From an uncultured Fodinibius sp. (GTDB lineage Bacteria; Bacteroidota; Rhodothermia; Balneolales; Balneolaceae), in NCBI GenBank assembly GCA_913057775.1, contig CAJXOG010000007.1, positions 62,001-126,000 of the forward strand: 64,000 bases of DNA, read 5' to 3'. Positions within the stretch are counted from its first letter, which is position 1. Each line of letters starts with the position of its first letter. The notes beneath the pieces are model-generated. The model was not told where the DNA came from, ran no database searches, and was given only the letters and a program-made list of their open reading frames with translations. Position numbers and translations under genes: made by a program. Of the stretch, positions 7,824 through 49,359 are shown piece by piece.

Positions 7824-9314
7824 TTATTCATAACTCCAGCCATCGCGATATGGTCTTTTAATATACCGCTCGGCTGTCTCTTTGGCATTAGTCGTCTCGT
7901 ATGAAGTATCAAAACGAGGATCTCCGTCAACAACCTTAAAACTATCGCTTGTTACCACACGAATTTCATCACCCTCATCAATATTAATAATCTCCATATT
8001 TTTACCATCCCATTGCAATGGCCGCTTCAGGTCTTGCAAACGAACCGCCAGATTGCCCATCACAACAACTTCATTTAAAGGTCCAGCATACTCAAAATTA
8101 GAGCTGGGCCTATCAGGATCACCCTCTTTGCAGGCATCTACCCAATCCATTTCGTGTCCACCATTCATTGCATCAGGAATACGACGAAACTTTTTAGAAA
8201 CCTCAGGCGGATCTTCTTCTCGTCCAATAATATAAGGATCAAGAGCGTAAGTGCTACAGATCAAGGTTCCTTTGGAACCGACAAACATAGCCCCTCCGCC
8301 ATTATCACCCATTGTTTTCCCTTCGGGAATACCTTCCGGACGTTCGGGCATCAATCCGCCGTCGTACCAGGTGAATTTAACCGGCGGCATCTCAACATCC
8401 CCTTTCTTGGGTCTACGGGGAAATTCGTAAATTACTTTTTCTGCTAATGGTGCACTTTCGGTATTGAGCTGTGTAGAACTGCCCTCAATGGTATCAGGTT
8501 GCCCCAACTGTAGTGCCTTAAACACCGGATCGATAATATGGCATCCCATGTCGCCGAGTGCACCTGTTCCATAATCCCACCAAGCACGCCAGTTCCACGG
8601 CGTATATGAGGGATGATACGGACGCCATGGAGCGGGTCCCACAAACAGATCCCAGTTCAACGTTGGTGGTGTGGAAGGTGTCTCAGAGGGACGTTCCAAA
8701 CCCTGCGGCCAGATGGGTCGATTCGTCCATGCGTGCACTTCTTCGATTTCACCAATTTCGCCATTCCAAATCCATTCACAAATGTGACGAATACCTTCAG
8801 CAGAATTTCCCTGATTACCCATTTGTGTCACTACCCCGGTTTCCTGGGCGATATCTGTCAGCTTGCGAGATTCATAAATAGAATGAGTTAATGGTTTCTG
8901 AAGAAATACATGCTTCCCACGTCTCATGGCTTCAGCAGCCGTTACATAATGGGTATGATCGGGTGTGCCGATTACTACCGCATCAATTTCATCGCCCATC
9001 TCGTCAAACATTCGACGATAGTCCTCAAATTTTTGCGCATCAGGATAATCCTTAAATGTTTTAGCGGCATAATCCCAATCAACATCGCAGAGAGCGACAA
9101 TATTTTCGCTGCCCATATTACGTAAGTTAGCCCTGCCTATTCCACCAACGCCAATGCCTGCAATATTTAGCTTATCACTTGGTGGTTTATTGCCAAGGCC
9201 CGTAACAACTGAACTCGGTACAATAGAAAAGCCCGCTGCTAATACTCCTGATGTTTTTAAAAATTCGTGTCTGGATACCCCTTTCTTCTTTTTGTCATCA
9301 TCTTTTTTGCCCAT
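7824..9314 (-). CDS. Exported Gfo/Idh/MocA family oxidoreductase
   Basis: The 496-residue protein has an N-terminal Tat-like region (SRHEFLKTSG) followed by a hydrophobic stretch, then a Rossmann fold starting at GIGVGGIGRANLRNM and the family motif FLQKPLTHS near residue 140. The C-terminal domain is of the long periplasmic type seen in Bacteroidota and Planctomycetota. One arginine of the twin-arginine pair is replaced by histidine, which may weaken Tat recognition. It lies 38 bases upstream of the DUF1080 gene and is probably cotranscribed. Confidence 0.87.
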   Translation of the reverse strand: MGKKDDDKKKKGVSRHEFLKTSGVLAAGFSIVPSSVVTGLGNKPPSDKLNIAGIGVGGIGRANLRNMGSENIVALCDVDWDYAAKTFKDYPDAQKFEDYRRMFDEMGDEIDAVVIGTPDHTHYVTAAEAMRRGKHVFLQKPLTHSIYESRKLTDIAQETGVVTQMGNQGNSAEGIRHICEWIWNGEIGEIEEVHAWTNRPIWPQGLERPSETPSTPPTLNWDLFVGPAPWRPYHPSYTPWNWRAWWDYGTGALGDMGCHIIDPVFKALQLGQPDTIEGSSTQLNTESAPLAEKVIYEFPRRPKKGDVEMPPVKFTWYDGGLMPERPEGIPEGKTMGDNGGGAMFVGSKGTLICSTYALDPYIIGREEDPPEVSKKFRRIPDAMNGGHEMDWVDACKEGDPDRPSSNFEYAGPLNEVVVMGNLAVRLQDLKRPLQWDGKNMEIINIDEGDEIRVVTSDSFKVVDGDPRFDTSYETTNAKETAERYIKRPYRDGWSYE

Positions 9315-19530: not shown

Positions 19531-20967
19531 ATGAGCTTAGTCCAATCCGAGCATTCAACATTACTTGAGCGTCCTGCATTATATACTGATTATTATGAGG
19601 TCACAATGGCTCAGGGATATTTTTTGGCAGGACGACAAGATGAGGAAGCCACCTTCGATTACTTCTTTCGAGACCTCCCCTTTAAAGGAGGTTATGTTAT
19701 TTTTGCTGGTCTTGGAGATCTTCTCAAAACATTGCAAGACTTTCGCTTCCACGAAGATGAAATTGCATATCTGGCCAGACAAGGATTTCGAAAAGAATTT
19801 CTTGATTACTTACGCAATTTTGAATTAACAGCAGATATTTTCGCAGCGAAAGAAGGAGAAATTGTCTTCCCTACCGAGCCTATTGTCCGTATAGAGGGCA
19901 GCATTATCGAAGCTCAAATTTTAGAGACCCTATTGTTAAATATTCTGAACTTCGAATCACTAATTGCCACAAAAGCTTCGCGGATGAAATATGCTGCAGG
20001 TGATCGAAAGGTACTCGATTTTGGATTGAGACGAGCCCAGGGATATGGTGGTATCCAAGCGAGCAAGGCGGCCTACATTGGTGGTGTTGAGGCTACATCA
20101 AACGTATACAGTTCTTTCCGTGATAATATTCCTGCCAGTGGTACTATGGCACACTCCTGGATACAATCGTTTGACGATGAACTAACTGCTTTTCGAAAGT
20201 ATGCCGAATATTACCCGGATGATTGTATTCTACTGGTCGATACCTATGATACTCTTAACAGTGGAGTACCCAATGCCATCAAAGTGGGTAAGGAGCTGGA
20301 GAAAAAAGGATATAAGTTAAAAGGTATCCGATTAGATAGCGGTGATTTGGCCTATTTCTCCCGCCAATCACGCAAACAGCTTGATGAAGCTGGATTAGAA
20401 TACGTAAAAATTGCAGCGTCCAACCAACTTGATGAGCGACTTATAAAAAGTTTGATAAGCCAGGATGCTCCTATTGATCTTTTTGGTGTTGGTACTCGTC
20501 TTGTCACCGGTCAGGATAGCCCCGCCTTAGACGGTGTCTATAAACTGGCATCCGTCAATAATGAACCAAAGCTAAAAATCTCTGAAAATATTGAGAAAAT
20601 TACACTTCCCGGACGTAAGAAGGTTATTCGATATAGCGGCGATGATGGTACATTTTATGGTGATGGCATTGTGCTTAATCAAGAGAAAAATGTAGATACA
20701 ATTTACCATCCCCACTACCCTGCCAAGCATGCTACGGTAACTACCTTTAACAAAGAAGATTTATTACATAATGTAATGCGAGATGGGAAGCCGACTATCG
20801 ATATCCCAACCCCCAAAGAAAGTGCTTCGTATGCTAAACAGAGACTTAGTAAATTGATTCCTGAGCACAAGCGTTTTGACAATCCACATATTTACAAAGT
20901 GGGGATTAGCAAAGAATTAATGAATTTACGAGATGATCTAACCCAAAAAATGAAGAATAAAAGTTAA
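19531..20967 (+). CDS. pncB: Nicotinate phosphoribosyltransferase
   Basis: Starting at the ATG at 19531 the protein is 478 residues; an in-frame TTG 30 bases upstream is less likely. It has the N-terminal LYTDYYEVTMAQGY motif that binds nicotinate, the FGLRRAQGYGG element and the phosphate-binding GVGTRLVTG region near residue 335. The enzyme makes nicotinate mononucleotide from nicotinate and PRPP in the NAD salvage pathway. It lies 10 bases before pncA, which supplies its substrate. Confidence 0.93.
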   Translation: MSLVQSEHSTLLERPALYTDYYEVTMAQGYFLAGRQDEEATFDYFFRDLPFKGGYVIFAGLGDLLKTLQDFRFHEDEIAYLARQGFRKEFLDYLRNFELTADIFAAKEGEIVFPTEPIVRIEGSIIEAQILETLLLNILNFESLIATKASRMKYAAGDRKVLDFGLRRAQGYGGIQASKAAYIGGVEATSNVYSSFRDNIPASGTMAHSWIQSFDDELTAFRKYAEYYPDDCILLVDTYDTLNSGVPNAIKVGKELEKKGYKLKGIRLDSGDLAYFSRQSRKQLDEAGLEYVKIAASNQLDERLIKSLISQDAPIDLFGVGTRLVTGQDSPALDGVYKLASVNNEPKLKISENIEKITLPGRKKVIRYSGDDGTFYGDGIVLNQEKNVDTIYHPHYPAKHATVTTFNKEDLLHNVMRDGKPTIDIPTPKESASYAKQRLSKLIPEHKRFDNPHIYKVGISKELMNLRDDLTQKMKNKS

Positions 20968-26198: not shown

Positions 26199-26225
26199 GC
26201 GGAGAGGGAGGGATTCGAACCCTCG
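26199..26225 (-). repeat. Distal attachment site: detached 3' end of tRNA-Ser
   Basis: These 27 bases are identical to 49333-49359, the T-arm and acceptor 3' strand of the intact tRNA-Ser. The rest of the tRNA is absent here. This is the pattern left by a tyrosine recombinase that integrates at a tRNA 3' end. Confidence 0.92.
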
Positions 26226-27287: not shown

Positions 27288-27536
27288 ATGGTAAAGGGAA
27301 CCGACATAAGAAAAGCACTTGGTCAAACTGTTAGGCAACTACGGTTAGACCGGAATATCTCTCAGGAAAAGCTTGCTGAACTCGGCTCTCTTGATCGGTC
27401 TTACATATCTGAAATTGAAAATGGAGAAAAAACAGCTTCAATATTAACTGTTTATAAACTCTCTCTTGCATTAGAAGTAAAACCCAGTCAACTAATCGAG
27501 GAGATGGAAAAGCATTTCGAATTCAACAAAGGTTGA
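27288..27536 (+). CDS. XRE-family helix-turn-helix regulator
   Basis: This 82-residue protein is a single Cro/C1-type helix-turn-helix domain: GQTVRQLRLDRNISQEKLAELGSL is the start of the HTH, followed by the recognition helix and the typical SYISEIENGEK. Size and form resemble the controller (C) proteins of restriction-modification systems. A short sequence with partial dyad symmetry (TATAGCCCGTAGTCTA, near 27240-27256) lies in the divergent promoter region and may be its operator; this is a weak match to known C-boxes. Confidence 0.85.
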   Translation: MVKGTDIRKALGQTVRQLRLDRNISQEKLAELGSLDRSYISEIENGEKTASILTVYKLSLALEVKPSQLIEEMEKHFEFNKG

Positions 27537-31709: not shown

Positions 31710-31850
31710 TACAGCCTTGGAAGATATGTACTTAGCTACCACTCATTGGCTTTTCAACTCTTCGCTAATCCATTTACTACAAGTTTAAAATTACGCACGC
31801 ATTTTATATTCAATTCGATTTGACTACAAGTCAAACAGAACTCCATTAGC

Positions 31851-32672
31851 ATGAATAATTATTACGTTTATGTTTATATAGATCCAAGAAACTTTGAAGA
31901 ATTTTATTTTGGTAAAGGCAAAGGATCCAGAAAAAATGCTCATTTAAATGATGATTCGGATTCTGAAAAAGCTAATCGGATTGCCTCAATAAAAGATGAA
32001 GGGCTTGAACCAATAATTCGAGTAATTGCTAAAGATCTCTCTAAAAAAGAAGCTTTGCTTATTGAAAAAACATTGCTCTGGAAGCTTGGTCGCAACCTTA
32101 CTAATATATCATCAGGGCATTTTAAAAATAAATTCAGACCACATAATACTCTACATTTAGAACTAAATAATTTCGATTACGAAAATGGTATTTATTACTA
32201 TGTAGTAGGTGAAGATAGTAAAAATGAAAAAAGAAACTGGGATGACTATAGAGAACTTGGGTTTATATCCGCTGGTCAAGGAGTTAAGTATAAAAACTAT
32301 ATAAAAGGGTTTAATCCTGGTGATATTTTCGCTGCATACCTAAGACAGAATAAACGCTCCGATGGTTTTGGCTATGTTGGAATCGGAAGAATAATTCAAG
32401 AAGCAAAGCCAGTACGTGAAGTGCAAATTGATGGGAAACCTCTTATAGATTACGATCTAAGAGGGAATATGTACAAGAATATCGAATCGGATGAACTTTG
32501 TGAATATGTTGCACTAGTTGAATGGATTAGAGCTGTAGAAAGCTCCGAAGCTAAATGGGAACCAGGGCTTTTTACCAATCAGAATATTCGTACTAAACTC
32601 GATAAGCAGACTGAAACTATAGAGTTCTTAGAAAATACATTCCAAGTTAATCTTAGAGAGCTTGTTGCGTAA
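31851..32672 (+). CDS. GIY-YIG nuclease fused to a PUA/EVE-like reader domain
   Basis: The 273-residue protein has two parts. Residues 1-95 form a LEM-3-like GIY-YIG nuclease: YYVYVYIDPRN, then FYFGKGKGSR with the catalytic arginine, and EALLIEKTLLW with the metal-binding glutamate. Residues 105-273 form an EVE/PUA-like domain: RNWDDYRELGFISAGQG, then FNPGDIFAAYLRQ, YVGIGRIIQEAKP and CEYVALVEW. Such domains bind modified bases in nucleic acids, so the fusion looks like a modification-dependent nuclease. The second domain is assigned by pattern only. It is followed by the first copy of the element's hairpin repeat. Confidence 0.7.
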   Translation: MNNYYVYVYIDPRNFEEFYFGKGKGSRKNAHLNDDSDSEKANRIASIKDEGLEPIIRVIAKDLSKKEALLIEKTLLWKLGRNLTNISSGHFKNKFRPHNTLHLELNNFDYENGIYYYVVGEDSKNEKRNWDDYRELGFISAGQGVKYKNYIKGFNPGDIFAAYLRQNKRSDGFGYVGIGRIIQEAKPVREVQIDGKPLIDYDLRGNMYKNIESDELCEYVALVEWIRAVESSEAKWEPGLFTNQNIRTKLDKQTETIEFLENTFQVNLRELVA

Positions 32673-32710
32673 AACACCTAACTAAGCAGAAAGTCCTTGC
32701 TTATCGTTAA

Positions 32711-32833
32711 TTCATCCATCCATACAAATAACATATACATTGGATAGATGGATAAGGAACAAGGCTAACTATACAAAAAATGCATTAAGGAGACGAACCT
32801 CTACATGAATTGCCAGCTTTTTATCTTTTTCCC
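32711..32833 (+). repeat. Island hairpin repeat, copy A
   Basis: The repeat starts with an inverted pair ATCCATC (32714-32720) and GATGGAT (32747-32753) around a spacer with ATATACATTGGAT. It continues with AAGGnG..ACCT (near 32787-32800) and ends in TGCCAG followed by a T-rich run. Copy B at 33731 aligns over its whole length. A and B are direct repeats flanking the EVE-like reader gene at 32889-33590. The end looks terminator-like. Confidence 0.65.
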
Positions 32834-32888
32834 TACAATCATTAGTGCACCCCTTATTATACAAGGTCTCTATACCACTTCTCAAATA

Positions 32889-33590
32889 CTATTCTGAAAG
32901 TTGATCTATCATCTGATCAATTGATCCATATTTGGCAAGCATTTTTTCGACATGATCTGTAGTTACACGTCTAAATCCTGGTACATCATAATTAGATTTA
33001 TATCCAAAGGCTTCAACCATTTTAACCCGGTCAATTTTGATAGGTTTAATTTCGTCCAAAACAAAAATCAACTCCCATGGTTTTCCAGGTGTTACATCCC
33101 ATAGGGCTTGACCAAAATCTTCATTTTCAAACTTATAAATTACTTTTCCAACAAAATTGAAGAATCCACTCCCAGTAATTTTAAACAATACATAGTCGTT
33201 TTTCTTCATAGTTCTGTAATATGCACGACTATTTTCATTCATTGCCCAACAGTGAAAACTTATATTTTCCCCAAGACTTTCTGACAAAGACTCAAATTGT
33301 TCTGAAGAGAGATATTTCTTTGCTGTTGAAAGATGTACACTACCTTTAATACTTGTTTTGATATTTTCTTCACTTGCTGGAGCAAGAAATATATCAAAAT
33401 CTAAAGCTTCACTATCCCTTTCTCGATTTTCATTAACTTCTGAACTTTTAAACATTTCGTCCTCCTCGTTATGTTCTTCATAAAAATCTAGTAGTCGTTC
33501 AATTACATTAGCTGGTGTATCAACTAGTGGTTCAGCATGCTTTTGTAATCTCAGAAAAACAGATTTCGGTATTCTTATTACCTTACTCAT
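32889..33590 (-). CDS. EVE/PUA-like reader protein with ribbon-helix-helix-like N-terminus
   Basis: This 233-residue protein has an N-terminal region (SKVIRIPKSVFLRLQKHA...) like the short DNA-binding leader of some restriction proteins, an acidic linker (43-62) and a C-terminal EVE-like reader domain: MNENSRAYYRTMKKNDYVLF, FFNFVGKVIYKFEN, QALWDVTPGKPWELIFVLDE and a final helix. No nuclease motif was seen. It is flanked by copies A and B of the hairpin repeat. It may supply recognition for a neighbouring nuclease, for example the divergent gene at 33921. Confidence 0.65.
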   Translation of the reverse strand: MSKVIRIPKSVFLRLQKHAEPLVDTPANVIERLLDFYEEHNEEDEMFKSSEVNENRERDSEALDFDIFLAPASEENIKTSIKGSVHLSTAKKYLSSEQFESLSESLGENISFHCWAMNENSRAYYRTMKKNDYVLFKITGSGFFNFVGKVIYKFENEDFGQALWDVTPGKPWELIFVLDEIKPIKIDRVKMVEAFGYKSNYDVPGFRRVTTDHVEKMLAKYGSIDQMIDQLSE

Positions 33591-33920
33591 AAACCCGGAA
33601 TTAAAGTAAATATTATTTGTTACAATGTAACACTATCTATTGATCTATGTCAATTTTATTTTGAAAGACGATGTCATAACACTTTTTAATGGGAAAATGT
33701 CAATCAGATAATTTTCATCAATGATCTAACTTATCCATCCATACAAACTGTATATACATTGGATAGATGTATGAGGATCTAAGCTTGTTTTACAATCAGC
33801 ACAATAAGGGGCATACCTGACCCCCAGCTGCCAGTTTTTGGCTTTTAAGCTTTCGTTCATTATTTAGAATCAAAATATTTTCTGTTCGCAGATTATTTGC
33901 TATTCATTTATGTACCTTAA
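33591..33920. other. Intergenic region carrying hairpin repeat copy B
   Basis: This 330-base divergent region separates the EVE-like reader gene (minus) from the PD-(D/E)XK gene (plus). It must hold both promoters. Apart from repeat copy B at 33731-33848, no gene or clear promoter box was recognised. Confidence 0.5.
33731..33848 (+). repeat. Island hairpin repeat, copy B
   Basis: The left arm ATCCATCCATACAAA (from 33733) and ATATACATTGGATAGATG match copy A nearly exactly. Conservation continues through AAGGGGCATACCT and TGCCAGTTTTTGGCTTTT at the 3' end. The middle of the element differs, but the short AGG/CCT pairing positions are kept, which suggests that structure is under selection. Confidence 0.65.
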
Positions 33921-34970
33921 ATGACGAAGAACCCTATGCCAAAAGACAAGATTTCTCGAATCTGCTGGAACACGGAAGGTTGGCGAAAGCCATCAGGTAA
34001 AGCTGGGAAAAGCAAAAATAAAGATTTATACGAATATCGTTTTGGATATGGTCATGAAGAATGGCTCTTAGATACTACGAAACTCATTGATGGTTGGCAC
34101 TACGCGTATTTGCAGTCGATCGGGCTACACCGCTCAAAATATATTGGAGAAAAATTCAATATATCATTGTATGCCATCAATAGTAAAACCAAGAGACGAT
34201 GGTGGATTGGACGAATCCTTGATGTTATAGTTACAACTCCCGAAGAATCCCAAGAGGTTTATGCTAATTATAGAAAAAGAGGATGGTTGAAAGAAATGGA
34301 GGAACAACTTCGCAATGTCAATGCAGATGTTAATGACTTTCGGGAAAATACAGTACCAGAAAACTTTGCCGTAATAAGGTTTCGACTTAAGTCGCTCGAC
34401 ATATTGGATACTCCTATGGAGTTTTCTAAAGATGATCCAGCTGTGTCCTCAAACTACTATAACCTTTTGAATAAAAAGCAATCACCTAAACTTCTTGCCA
34501 ATAAAAACCAGTTTGAATTCACCCCAGGTCACAAGCACAAGAAGGATTCAACAAAGTCGACTTATGAGGAACATTCTACCAAAGTTGATCTTGTTCATAA
34601 TCAGATCCAAACCAAAATATATCGACAACTTGCTAAAAAATATGGGGAGGGAAATGTAGGAACAGAACAAGATACAGGTTATGGTTCACAAATAGATCTT
34701 GTGGTAAAGAGCGATGAAGGCTTTATTTTTTATGAAATTAAAACATCGTACTCAGTTAGACTGTGTATTCGAAAGGGGTTATCTCAATTGCTTGAGTACG
34801 GTTACTATCCCAACACAGAAAATGCCGAAAAATTAATAATAGTTGCTCCTAAAAAAATAACAAAGGAAGCCATAAGATACATGAAATCATTAAGAAAGAA
34901 TTTTGACATTCCAGTTTATTATCAATGCTATAATCCTGAAACAGAAAGTTTAGAGAAAGTACTATATTAA
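33921..34970 (+). CDS. PD-(D/E)XK nuclease with unknown N-terminal reader-like domain
   Basis: The 349-residue protein has a C-terminal nuclease domain: GSQIDLVV (Asp259) and YEIKTSYS (Glu272, Lys274), with upstream helix VHNQIQTKIYRQLAKKY and downstream LSQLLEYGYYP. The N-terminal region (1-200) contains FGYGHEEWLLD and RRWWIGRILDVI, a pattern seen in several restriction-like proteins and resembling a modified-base reader; this is inference. The start ATG at 33921 is followed by a second ATG at codon 6. It diverges from the EVE-like reader gene. Confidence 0.75.
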   Translation: MTKNPMPKDKISRICWNTEGWRKPSGKAGKSKNKDLYEYRFGYGHEEWLLDTTKLIDGWHYAYLQSIGLHRSKYIGEKFNISLYAINSKTKRRWWIGRILDVIVTTPEESQEVYANYRKRGWLKEMEEQLRNVNADVNDFRENTVPENFAVIRFRLKSLDILDTPMEFSKDDPAVSSNYYNLLNKKQSPKLLANKNQFEFTPGHKHKKDSTKSTYEEHSTKVDLVHNQIQTKIYRQLAKKYGEGNVGTEQDTGYGSQIDLVVKSDEGFIFYEIKTSYSVRLCIRKGLSQLLEYGYYPNTENAEKLIIVAPKKITKEAIRYMKSLRKNFDIPVYYQCYNPETESLEKVLY

Positions 34971-35157
34971 GACGAAAGTATAACCAACTTTTCAAATGGG
35001 ATATGTTTTGCAAAGTTTTTACTACTCTTTGTGTATAATCTAATCTCCCATTAGGTGCTAATTCAACACTGAAGTTTTTGCTGGTTATGTCACCCCAAAT
35101 GTCGTTACAAAACTTAACGCACTCGAACTGCTAAACACCACATTAAAACCAGATAAA

Positions 35158-45290: not shown

Positions 45291-45410
45291 ATATCCATGC
45301 ATCCAAACCCCATGTACATTAGATGGATGGATAAATACAGTTATCCTATAAAATGCTACTCATATATGAATCTCTAACATAATTGACAACTGAATTCTTG
45401 TCGACTTTAT
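45291..45410 (+). repeat. Island hairpin repeat, copy C (divergent)
   Basis: ATCCATGCATCCAAA (from 45293) and TACATTAGATGGATGGAT (to 45333) match the arms and the TACATT of copies A and B. Similarity beyond the hairpin is weak. Confidence 0.5.
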
Positions 45411-45563
45411 AAAACTACTAGTCTCACACTAATTAATTAAATATATACTATAGTTTGCCATTGTTTTGACCTACATATTAAAGTGCAATCACTATGCACA
45501 GTAAAAATAGATGGAGCCCAGCCTCTAAATTGGTCAGTAAACCAAAGGTAGAGAGACTGAGCA

Positions 45564-45609
45564 TATCTATCCATCTATGTATTTTGCCTGCTTGTTGGAT
45601 GGATAGATA
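45564..45609 (-). repeat. Island hairpin repeat, copy D (inverted)
   Basis: The arms are perfect inverted 12-mers: TATCTATCCATC (45564-45575) and GATGGATAGATA (45598-45609). Read on the minus strand, the spacer with ATACAT next to the right arm matches copies A and B. It lies 8 bases downstream of the stop of the RepA-like gene. Confidence 0.6.
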
Positions 45610-47849: not shown

Positions 47850-49073
47850 CTAAGAAACATTTTCAAGTTTTTCCTTTAGCTCAGACATCTCAGAATTAAC
47901 CTTATCCGGAGTTACTCGAGCATAATGCATTGTAGACTTTAAATCAGAGTGACCTAATACTTTTTGAACAGTTTCAACTGGTATTCCATTGGTTAAAAGC
48001 ATGGTAGCACATGTATGGCGTGCCACATGATGAGTGAGCTTTTTATCCACTCTGCAGAGAGTGGCTATCTCCTTTAGGTAGGCGTTTGTCTTTTGATTAC
48101 TAATCATAGGCAGTAAGCTGCCATCCGTAGTCTCTGGATGATCTTCATACTTGCTAATAATTTCAATCGCCTTTGGCAGTAATAAAACGCTTGCATTATT
48201 ACCTGTTTTTGTCCTCGGTTGGTACAGATAATAATCTCCATTTCGATCTTTTTTCACATCCGACTTTTTAAGCTTTTCAGCATCACTAAAGCCAAACCCC
48301 GTATAGCAACTGAATACAAATATATCACGTACTTGATCAAGCCGGTCTATTTCAAACTCTTTACGCTCTATCTTCTTTAATTCGCCCTGAGAAAGGAAAA
48401 CCGGGTCTTTCTTTTTATACTGCATTTTGAAGTGTTGGTATGGATTGCAATCCAATAATCCTTTCGACCTTGCTTTATTGACAATTTTTTGAAAATTGGA
48501 CAAGTACTTACGGGCTGTATTATTTGAGCATGGGTCATCTTTTGTCATTAGATAATGGGCAAACTCCTCTAAGAAATCCTGATCTACATCTGTAATTAAG
48601 TATTCCACATCATTGTACTGTTCCTGTAAAAATGCTTTTATATGCTTCTTTACGGTGCAGTATTTCTTATAAGTGGATTTGGCATATTTATTACCAACCA
48701 ACGATTTCATCTTTTTATTATGCTGTTTTATAACCTCTATAACAGGGTTAGAACTCTCCTCCTTATCCTTCCCTGTCATTCGCATCTTAACAGCCCTAGA
48801 AGTAATCTTCGCCCCTTCCTGGAGCAACTGCTGGTGAGCTTGATTAGCTTTGAATTCAAGTGTGTCAAGATATTGATTGATAGCCTTTGCTTTCTGGCTT
48901 CTACCTTTAACCCTATAAGTTTCACCATTCCATTTGGAAGGATCTACAGTTCGCCCCGCGGATATTTCAGAGGTTTTTCCATCTATATTTAGTCGCATAT
49001 AGATAGGCACTTCTCCATTAGCTCTGGCTTTATTTTTACGTACGGTATAAGAAATGTTTAAAGATCTAAACAT
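47850..49073 (-). CDS. int: Tyrosine recombinase (phage-type integrase)
   Basis: Starting at the ATG at 49071-49073, the protein is 407 residues and begins with the Arm-DNA-binding segment FRSLNISYTVRKNKARANGEVPIYMRL typical of Bacteroidota integrases; an upstream extension to 49190 is less likely. The SAM-like core-binding domain follows. The catalytic domain has TGFGFSDAEKL, RTKTGN, HHVARHT and LGHSDLKSTMHYARV with the nucleophilic tyrosine. The first catalytic arginine is not in its usual place, as in IntDOT-like enzymes. It lies 260 bases from the tRNA-Ser attachment site. Confidence 0.93.
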   Translation of the reverse strand: MFRSLNISYTVRKNKARANGEVPIYMRLNIDGKTSEISAGRTVDPSKWNGETYRVKGRSQKAKAINQYLDTLEFKANQAHQQLLQEGAKITSRAVKMRMTGKDKEESSNPVIEVIKQHNKKMKSLVGNKYAKSTYKKYCTVKKHIKAFLQEQYNDVEYLITDVDQDFLEEFAHYLMTKDDPCSNNTARKYLSNFQKIVNKARSKGLLDCNPYQHFKMQYKKKDPVFLSQGELKKIERKEFEIDRLDQVRDIFVFSCYTGFGFSDAEKLKKSDVKKDRNGDYYLYQPRTKTGNNASVLLLPKAIEIISKYEDHPETTDGSLLPMISNQKTNAYLKEIATLCRVDKKLTHHVARHTCATMLLTNGIPVETVQKVLGHSDLKSTMHYARVTPDKVNSEMSELKEKLENVS

Positions 49074-49151
49074 AATTGTGTCCTTTATGAGTTTCGAGTT
49101 TGTTCTACAGAAAGGCAGTAAAACAGATCTTGGTCCTCGTGGACACTTTTT

Positions 49152-49175
49152 CTGAGATGCGATAGATAATCTCAG
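49152..49175. promoter_or_regulatory. Inverted repeat upstream of int
   Basis: CTGAGAT and ATCTCAG form perfect 7-base arms with a 10-base spacer, about 80 bases before the integrase ATG. It could be an operator or a recombinase-binding site. Confidence 0.4.
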
Positions 49176-49201
49176 TGACCATTGCGACATCTTTGTGCAT
49201 G

Positions 49202-49332: not shown

Positions 49333-49359
49333 GCGGAGAGGGAGGGATTCGAACCCTCG
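49333..49359 (-). repeat. tRNA-side attachment core
   Basis: These 27 bases are identical to 26199-26225 and form the 3' part of the intact tRNA-Ser gene, from the T-arm to the discriminator base and one base beyond. The tRNA is therefore restored by the element's own copy. Confidence 0.92.

Follow-up and report, generated by a model that had tools for sequence, protein, structure and literature searches.

The gene at positions 32889-33590 of the window, by which the whole 64,000-nucleotide stretch of DNA analysed is meant, is very probably a former integron cassette that lies between two decayed attC sites of the chromosomal integron of the host genus, within an integrase-less attC cluster (CALIN) carried as cargo by a 23-kb tRNA-Ser island (Table 1). 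Integron integrases act on folded attC sites, and by recombining them they excise or insert single genes that carry one attC each. The repeat on either side of the gene, which would otherwise have been filed as a nameless direct repeat, is here identified as an integron recombination site.

Table 1 Features of the tRNA-Ser island and its attC cluster, with positions in the window
Feature	Position	Strand	Evidence or remark
tRNA-Ser integrative island	26199-49359		27-bp exact direct repeats at 26199-26225 and 49333-49359
GIY-YIG gene, PDC-S11-like C-terminal part, upstream of attC_A	31851-32672	+	PF22945 2.2e-9; PDC-S11 4.1e-35
ATCC palindrome, copy A	32714-32753	+	arms of 14 nt, 86 % complementary, 12-nt loop
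attC_A	32775-32874	+	model R2 19.8 bits, E = 0.0052 in window; strongly decayed; R'' and R' lost
Bracketed gene, 233 aa, putative EVE/McrB-N-like domain	32889-33590	-	ORF; 30 % identity to McrB-like N-terminus
ATCC palindrome, copy B	33733-33772	+	core pattern match
attC_B	33792-33912	+	model R2 45.1 bits, E = 1.8e-9 in window; decayed; R'' and R' lost
349-aa gene, ordinary cassette position	33921-34970	+	ORF; no family match
attC_C	34980-35109	+	model R2 35.7 bits, E = 4.4e-7 in window; both outer boxes kept, inner stem weakened
ATCC palindrome, copy C	45292-45333		without attC
ATCC-type palindrome, copy D, looser relative	45564-45609		without attC
Island tyrosine integrase, adjoins tRNA, not an integron integrase	47850-49190	-	PF00589 1.3e-16; TIGR02249 45.6 bits, cut-off 265

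The first-pass annotation had described a repeat of about 120 bases flanking the gene in the same orientation. In direct comparison, copies A (32708-32790) and B (33727-33809) were 75 % identical over 83 ungapped nucleotides in the same orientation. Self-BLAST of a 28-kb stretch returned the pair as 59 nt with 81 % identity (E = 4.8e-9), and the gapped similarity extended over about 150 nt, with a score that was reached by none of 500 shuffles. The flanking repeats were thus confirmed and their length had been fairly estimated, but each copy is composite rather than one unit, consisting of a 40-nt imperfect palindrome followed by a decayed integron attC.

A first model of the attC family was made from the tail of copy B and the two repeats flanking an HNH gene of G019, a related island. 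It detected the family in 29 of the 124 genomes from the order and in every one of the 12 genomes searched within the window's genus, the sites often following one another on one strand at distances of about 1 kb. The model used thereafter, R2, was built on 32 full sites of 124-128 nt from seven genomes of the genus. These sites fit the R''-L''-L'-R' plan of attC boxes. They had been chosen by a pattern demanding the outer boxes, and conservation of the boxes is therefore by construction, whereas covariation of the stem, with compensatory changes at 4 of the 12 predicted stem pairs, is not. Judged from sequence, the family is attC.

Scanning the window with model R2 gave three sites, all on the plus strand, the next best match having E = 0.31, and these sites belong to the attC family of the host integron. 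When E-values were calculated genome-wide, attC_B (8.7e-8) and attC_C (2.2e-5) were retained and attC_A was weak (0.255); the genome as a whole gave 31 matches with E of 1 or less, 27 of them with E of 0.01 or less. With a sequence-only HMM the scores were 33.7 bits for attC_B, 19.6 for attC_C and 13.7 for attC_A; shuffling the island 50 times gave no score above 7.4, and reversing it gave 5.6. One more candidate site (31736-31797) was not significant with either model R2 or the sequence-only HMM. With three attC within 32775-35109, counted with our own model and not that of IntegronFinder, the cluster passes the count for a CALIN, for which passages of PMC9024848 give a threshold of two.

Intact R'' (TAAC) and R' (GTTA) boxes were both kept in 46 of 67 aligned sites, some of which are partial and many of which had been picked by a pattern demanding the outer boxes; attC_C has both and attC_A and attC_B have neither. 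The latter two would thus appear to be remnants and not working sites, and excision of the bracketed gene by an integron integrase is unlikely today, because both flanking sites are without outer boxes. The proposal that recombination between A and B would remove exactly this gene was correct in its geometry but is unlikely to hold today, TAAC and GTTA being absent from both copies. Likewise, the idea that the repeat serves the gain and loss of single genes stands insofar as its right-hand part is an attC of the host integron family, but not for the present-day action of A and B.

The window's genome has an integron integrase on contig C16, with a TIGR02249 score of 444.5 bits against the curated cut-off of 265. 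None of 14 control genomes had a match over the cut-off, and all 14 had weaker ones. Four attC sites lie 1.3-3.1 kb from this integrase, and the contig ends 85 bases past the last of them. No other match in the genome exceeds the TIGR02249 cut-off, and there is thus no integron integrase in cis to the window cluster; an integrase beside an array, as in a complete integron, was found on C16 and in genome G009, and not at the window cluster. The integrase of G009 (C2:576641-577597) is 62 % identical to that of the window's genome and adjoins a 33-kb chromosomal array (C2:542162-574995) of at least 36 attC sites, the 36 used here being counted with two halves of one site taken as one and with weaker candidates at E = 0.003 and 0.042 left out.

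Further attC clusters off the integrase contig were seen in the window's genome at C4:195001-212000, C6:1-20000 and C14:24001-35286. Those that lie at the end of a contig may be fragments of the main array. Contig C4 also has another tyrosine integrase, with three attC sites 0.6-6 kb away.

Along the plus strand the window cluster consists of the GIY-YIG gene, attC_A, the bracketed gene (reversed), attC_B, the 349-aa gene and attC_C. A cassette is a single gene closely trailed by an attC, and this arrangement is clear for the 349-aa gene, which begins 8 nt past attC_B and ends 9 nt ahead of attC_C. Its product has what we take to be a PD-(D/E)XK-like motif. The bracketed gene lies between attC_A and attC_B and is read in the opposite direction, and this orientation, a minority state, counts against reading it as a cassette. 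In the G009 array, the longest ORF had the attC orientation in 32 of the 35 intervals and was reversed in the other 3, and the reversed bracketed gene is therefore no obstacle to the cassette reading.

The product of the bracketed gene had been described as EVE-like. Residues 53-226 have 30 % identity (E = 2e-14) with the N-terminal part of a 532-aa protein from another genome of the genus, the remainder of which is presumably a McrB-type AAA ATPase, judged from its motifs. This indirect similarity favours the description, but no Pfam family was above cut-off and no match was found in the PDB for the 233-aa product, and an EVE-like nature is best regarded as plausible from sequence comparison. 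The N-terminal 40 amino acids look like a ribbon-helix-helix. A single-sequence structure model was unusable (mean pLDDT 34.7). Searched with the bracketed gene, plasmid records gave one weak match and phage records none.

The 27-bp repeat at the two ends of the island is an exact copy of the 3' end of the tRNA-Ser and bounds 23.2 kb. Mrr-type, HNH and GIY-YIG (PDC-S11-like) genes are among the cargo, along with a C5 methylase, a LlaJI-type restriction enzyme, an AAA-ATPase restriction protein and Vsr. With its many genes for restriction and nucleases, the island appears to be a mobile defence island. A small gene for an XRE-type regulator is present at 27288-27536, and similar XRE-type genes were seen by eye at the far cargo end in the related islands G012 and G019; the cargo therefore seems bounded by an XRE-type gene and RadC. 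A 15.5-kb circular record from Bacteroides finegoldii, deposited as a plasmid (NZ_OY725960.1), contains two integrases, DUF3871 and a restriction-modification gene, and looks like the excised circular form of such an island.

DUF3871 had matches at seven places in six other genomes, and the six places fetched are the six related islands discussed here. Islands of this kind in the order have in common a 116-aa protein, DUF3871 and RadC, and most have a small protein as well. Sites of the attC family were found in two of the six: in G019 one on each side of the HNH gene (61.4 and 37.9 bits), and in G012 one of 54.0 bits, the R'' of which falls on a gene's stop codon. No attC at E below 0.1 was found in the remaining four. 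Self-comparison of G019 showed that the HNH gene is bracketed by 78-nt direct repeats, which match the right-hand part of copy B with 85 % identity over 40 nt (E = 4e-6). The same repeat beside other genes, which the first-pass annotation had proposed to look for, was thus found around this HNH gene and, as the attC family, along the 35 intervals of the G009 array. The two islands, together with the sites near the C4 integrase, suggest that islands collect cassettes, the window being one not randomly chosen and no enrichment being claimed. As to empty sites, the six related islands matched neither neighbouring gene of the bracketed gene, and no island without the gene was found. Viral contigs searched for DUF3871 and the AAA_25 protein gave nothing.

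We infer that the cassettes were mobile in the past, and that those of the attC family may have entered the island either when the integron integrase acted on a secondary site or when the island recombined with an array. The island's own integrase would then move the block between chromosomes by way of tRNA sites, as the 27-bp repeats suggest.

The left-hand part of each repeat, the ATCC palindrome, is imperfect (ATCCATCCATACAA, 12 nt, TTGGATAGATGGAT) and ends 21 nt ahead of attC_A and 19 nt ahead of attC_B. Its core did not occur in 100 shuffles of the window, and searches of the window's own genome with two patterns gave 45293-45329 as the sole place besides A and B. No attC was found near palindromes C and D. 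When 64 attC sites were searched with 80 nt of upstream sequence, such a hairpin was found at attC_A only, at the limits used, copy B being over the mismatch limit. The palindrome is neither part of attC nor a general cassette feature.

A Chitinophagales MAG, G128, contains two copies (L012:9723-9764 and 19646-19691) that bracket 10 kb of cargo and stand within a 16-bp direct repeat (C35:1583 and 22953), in an island of which DUF3871 is 51 %, the 116-aa protein 52 % and the integrase 28 % alike to those of the window island. None of the six related islands showed the palindrome. Pattern searches returned the window's own genome and one chance match among 128 genomes of the order, the own genome only among 394 genomes of the phylum, and G128 with one chance match among 395 genomes of the class of G128. 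A looser pattern in 99 relatives of G128 gave G128 and eight genomes with matches judged by eye to be chance. The patterns gave no match in IMG/VR, and one loop variant searched in GTDB contigs gave five stretches, of which one was real by eye.

Folded as RNA, copies A, B and C were no more stable than shuffles, and D and both G128 copies were more stable. No intrinsic terminators were found around A and B; around C and D there was one terminator-like site (45483-45499), at neither palindrome. Rfam gave the tRNA alone at the gathering score and one chance match at a lax threshold. The arm orientations of C, D and the first G128 copy were ambiguous and were dropped. For the palindrome as an oriT, ssi, REP or MITE there was no positive evidence, and binding by the product of the bracketed gene was dropped as a candidate, no such protein having been noticed beside the G128 palindromes. 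At the position of palindromes C and D, in the gap that separates the 116-aa gene from the next one, the island G011b has a 122-nt direct repeat (L048:8818-8935 and 9054-9172) and G019 a 122-nt inverted repeat (joined reverse of L046 and L047, 25089-25210).

It might be supposed that the palindrome is itself the active unit and serves as a small mobile or recombination element on either side of genes and cargo in these islands, with the attC remnants incidental. No other part of A and B is conserved as well as the palindrome, C and D stand at a module junction of the same island, and two copies bracket cargo in the distant G128 island, but neither a transposase nor a second recombinase was seen near the copies. 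Its rarity elsewhere, under the patterns used in the genomes of the order, the phylum and the class of G128, would also suit such an element, but the family that brackets genes in G019, in G012 and in the chromosomal arrays is attC without the palindrome, and four of the six copies (A, D and both in G128) lie 4-41 nt past a stop codon, as expected of a 3'-end hairpin. This explanation is considered improbable.

Even less credit is given to ordinary duplication, by which A and B would be one local segment present twice with no recombination system involved. The similar spacing of palindrome and attC in both copies would follow from it, and the right flanks resemble each other (p = 0.004 in 1000 shuffles, with 60 such comparisons made). 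However, over the attC part the two copies have the same base at 54 of 96 columns, which is below the agreement of either with the consensus (A, 62 of 98; B, 76 of 121), and where both depart from the consensus the base is shared at 9 of 19 columns. A and B match each other less than they match the family consensus and therefore need not be mutual copies, and a third attC begins at 34980. That the shared stretch is a promoter or regulatory segment can practically be dismissed: copy B and the G019 repeats do lie upstream of plus-strand genes, but the conserved unit is about 125 nt long with a covarying inner stem, scores as attC and separates the genes in arrays that have an integron integrase at their head, and the promoter-like matches around A and B numbered 6 against 5.5 in shuffles.

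Beyond the reading of the bracketed gene as a former cassette, we put forward as a tentative and rather doubtful extension that the chromosomal integrons of the genus feed nuclease and modification-reader cassettes into tRNA-targeted islands, which would serve as vehicles between strains, and that the ATCC palindrome marks a second site of cargo exchange, found twice 19-21 nt before an attC. The results point to a testable exchange route between integrons and integrative defence islands.

The results also reveal a Bacteroidota-like genus with a well-stocked family of chromosomal integrons; passages of the survey in PMC9024848 report one complete integron in Bacteroidetes and describe complete integrons there as very rare. 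A literature search on integrons in Balneola and its relatives, a weak search since the names of the relatives were guessed, gave no such array among the matches listed. Integrase-less attC clusters are already known as CALIN (passages of PMC9024848 and PMC11389934). The window resembles them in having three same-strand attC within 2.3 kb, with genes between, in an island without an integron integrase. It differs in that two of the three sites are without outer boxes and one cassette gene is reversed, and in that a tRNA-bounded island encloses the cluster, the genome having a complete integron of the same family at another place. Anti-phage cassettes in sedentary chromosomal integrons have been described by Darracq, Getz and Kieffer, as cited in passages of PMC12444791. 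A chromosomal integrase, same-strand attC arrays and defence-like genes between sites of the family are shared with those systems, whereas here the defence-like genes were seen in islands and the host is a Bacteroidota-like genus. Insertion of cassettes at attG sites, for which passages of PMC12444791 and PMC11023631 cite Loot and others (2024), is a candidate path from the chromosomal integron into the island.
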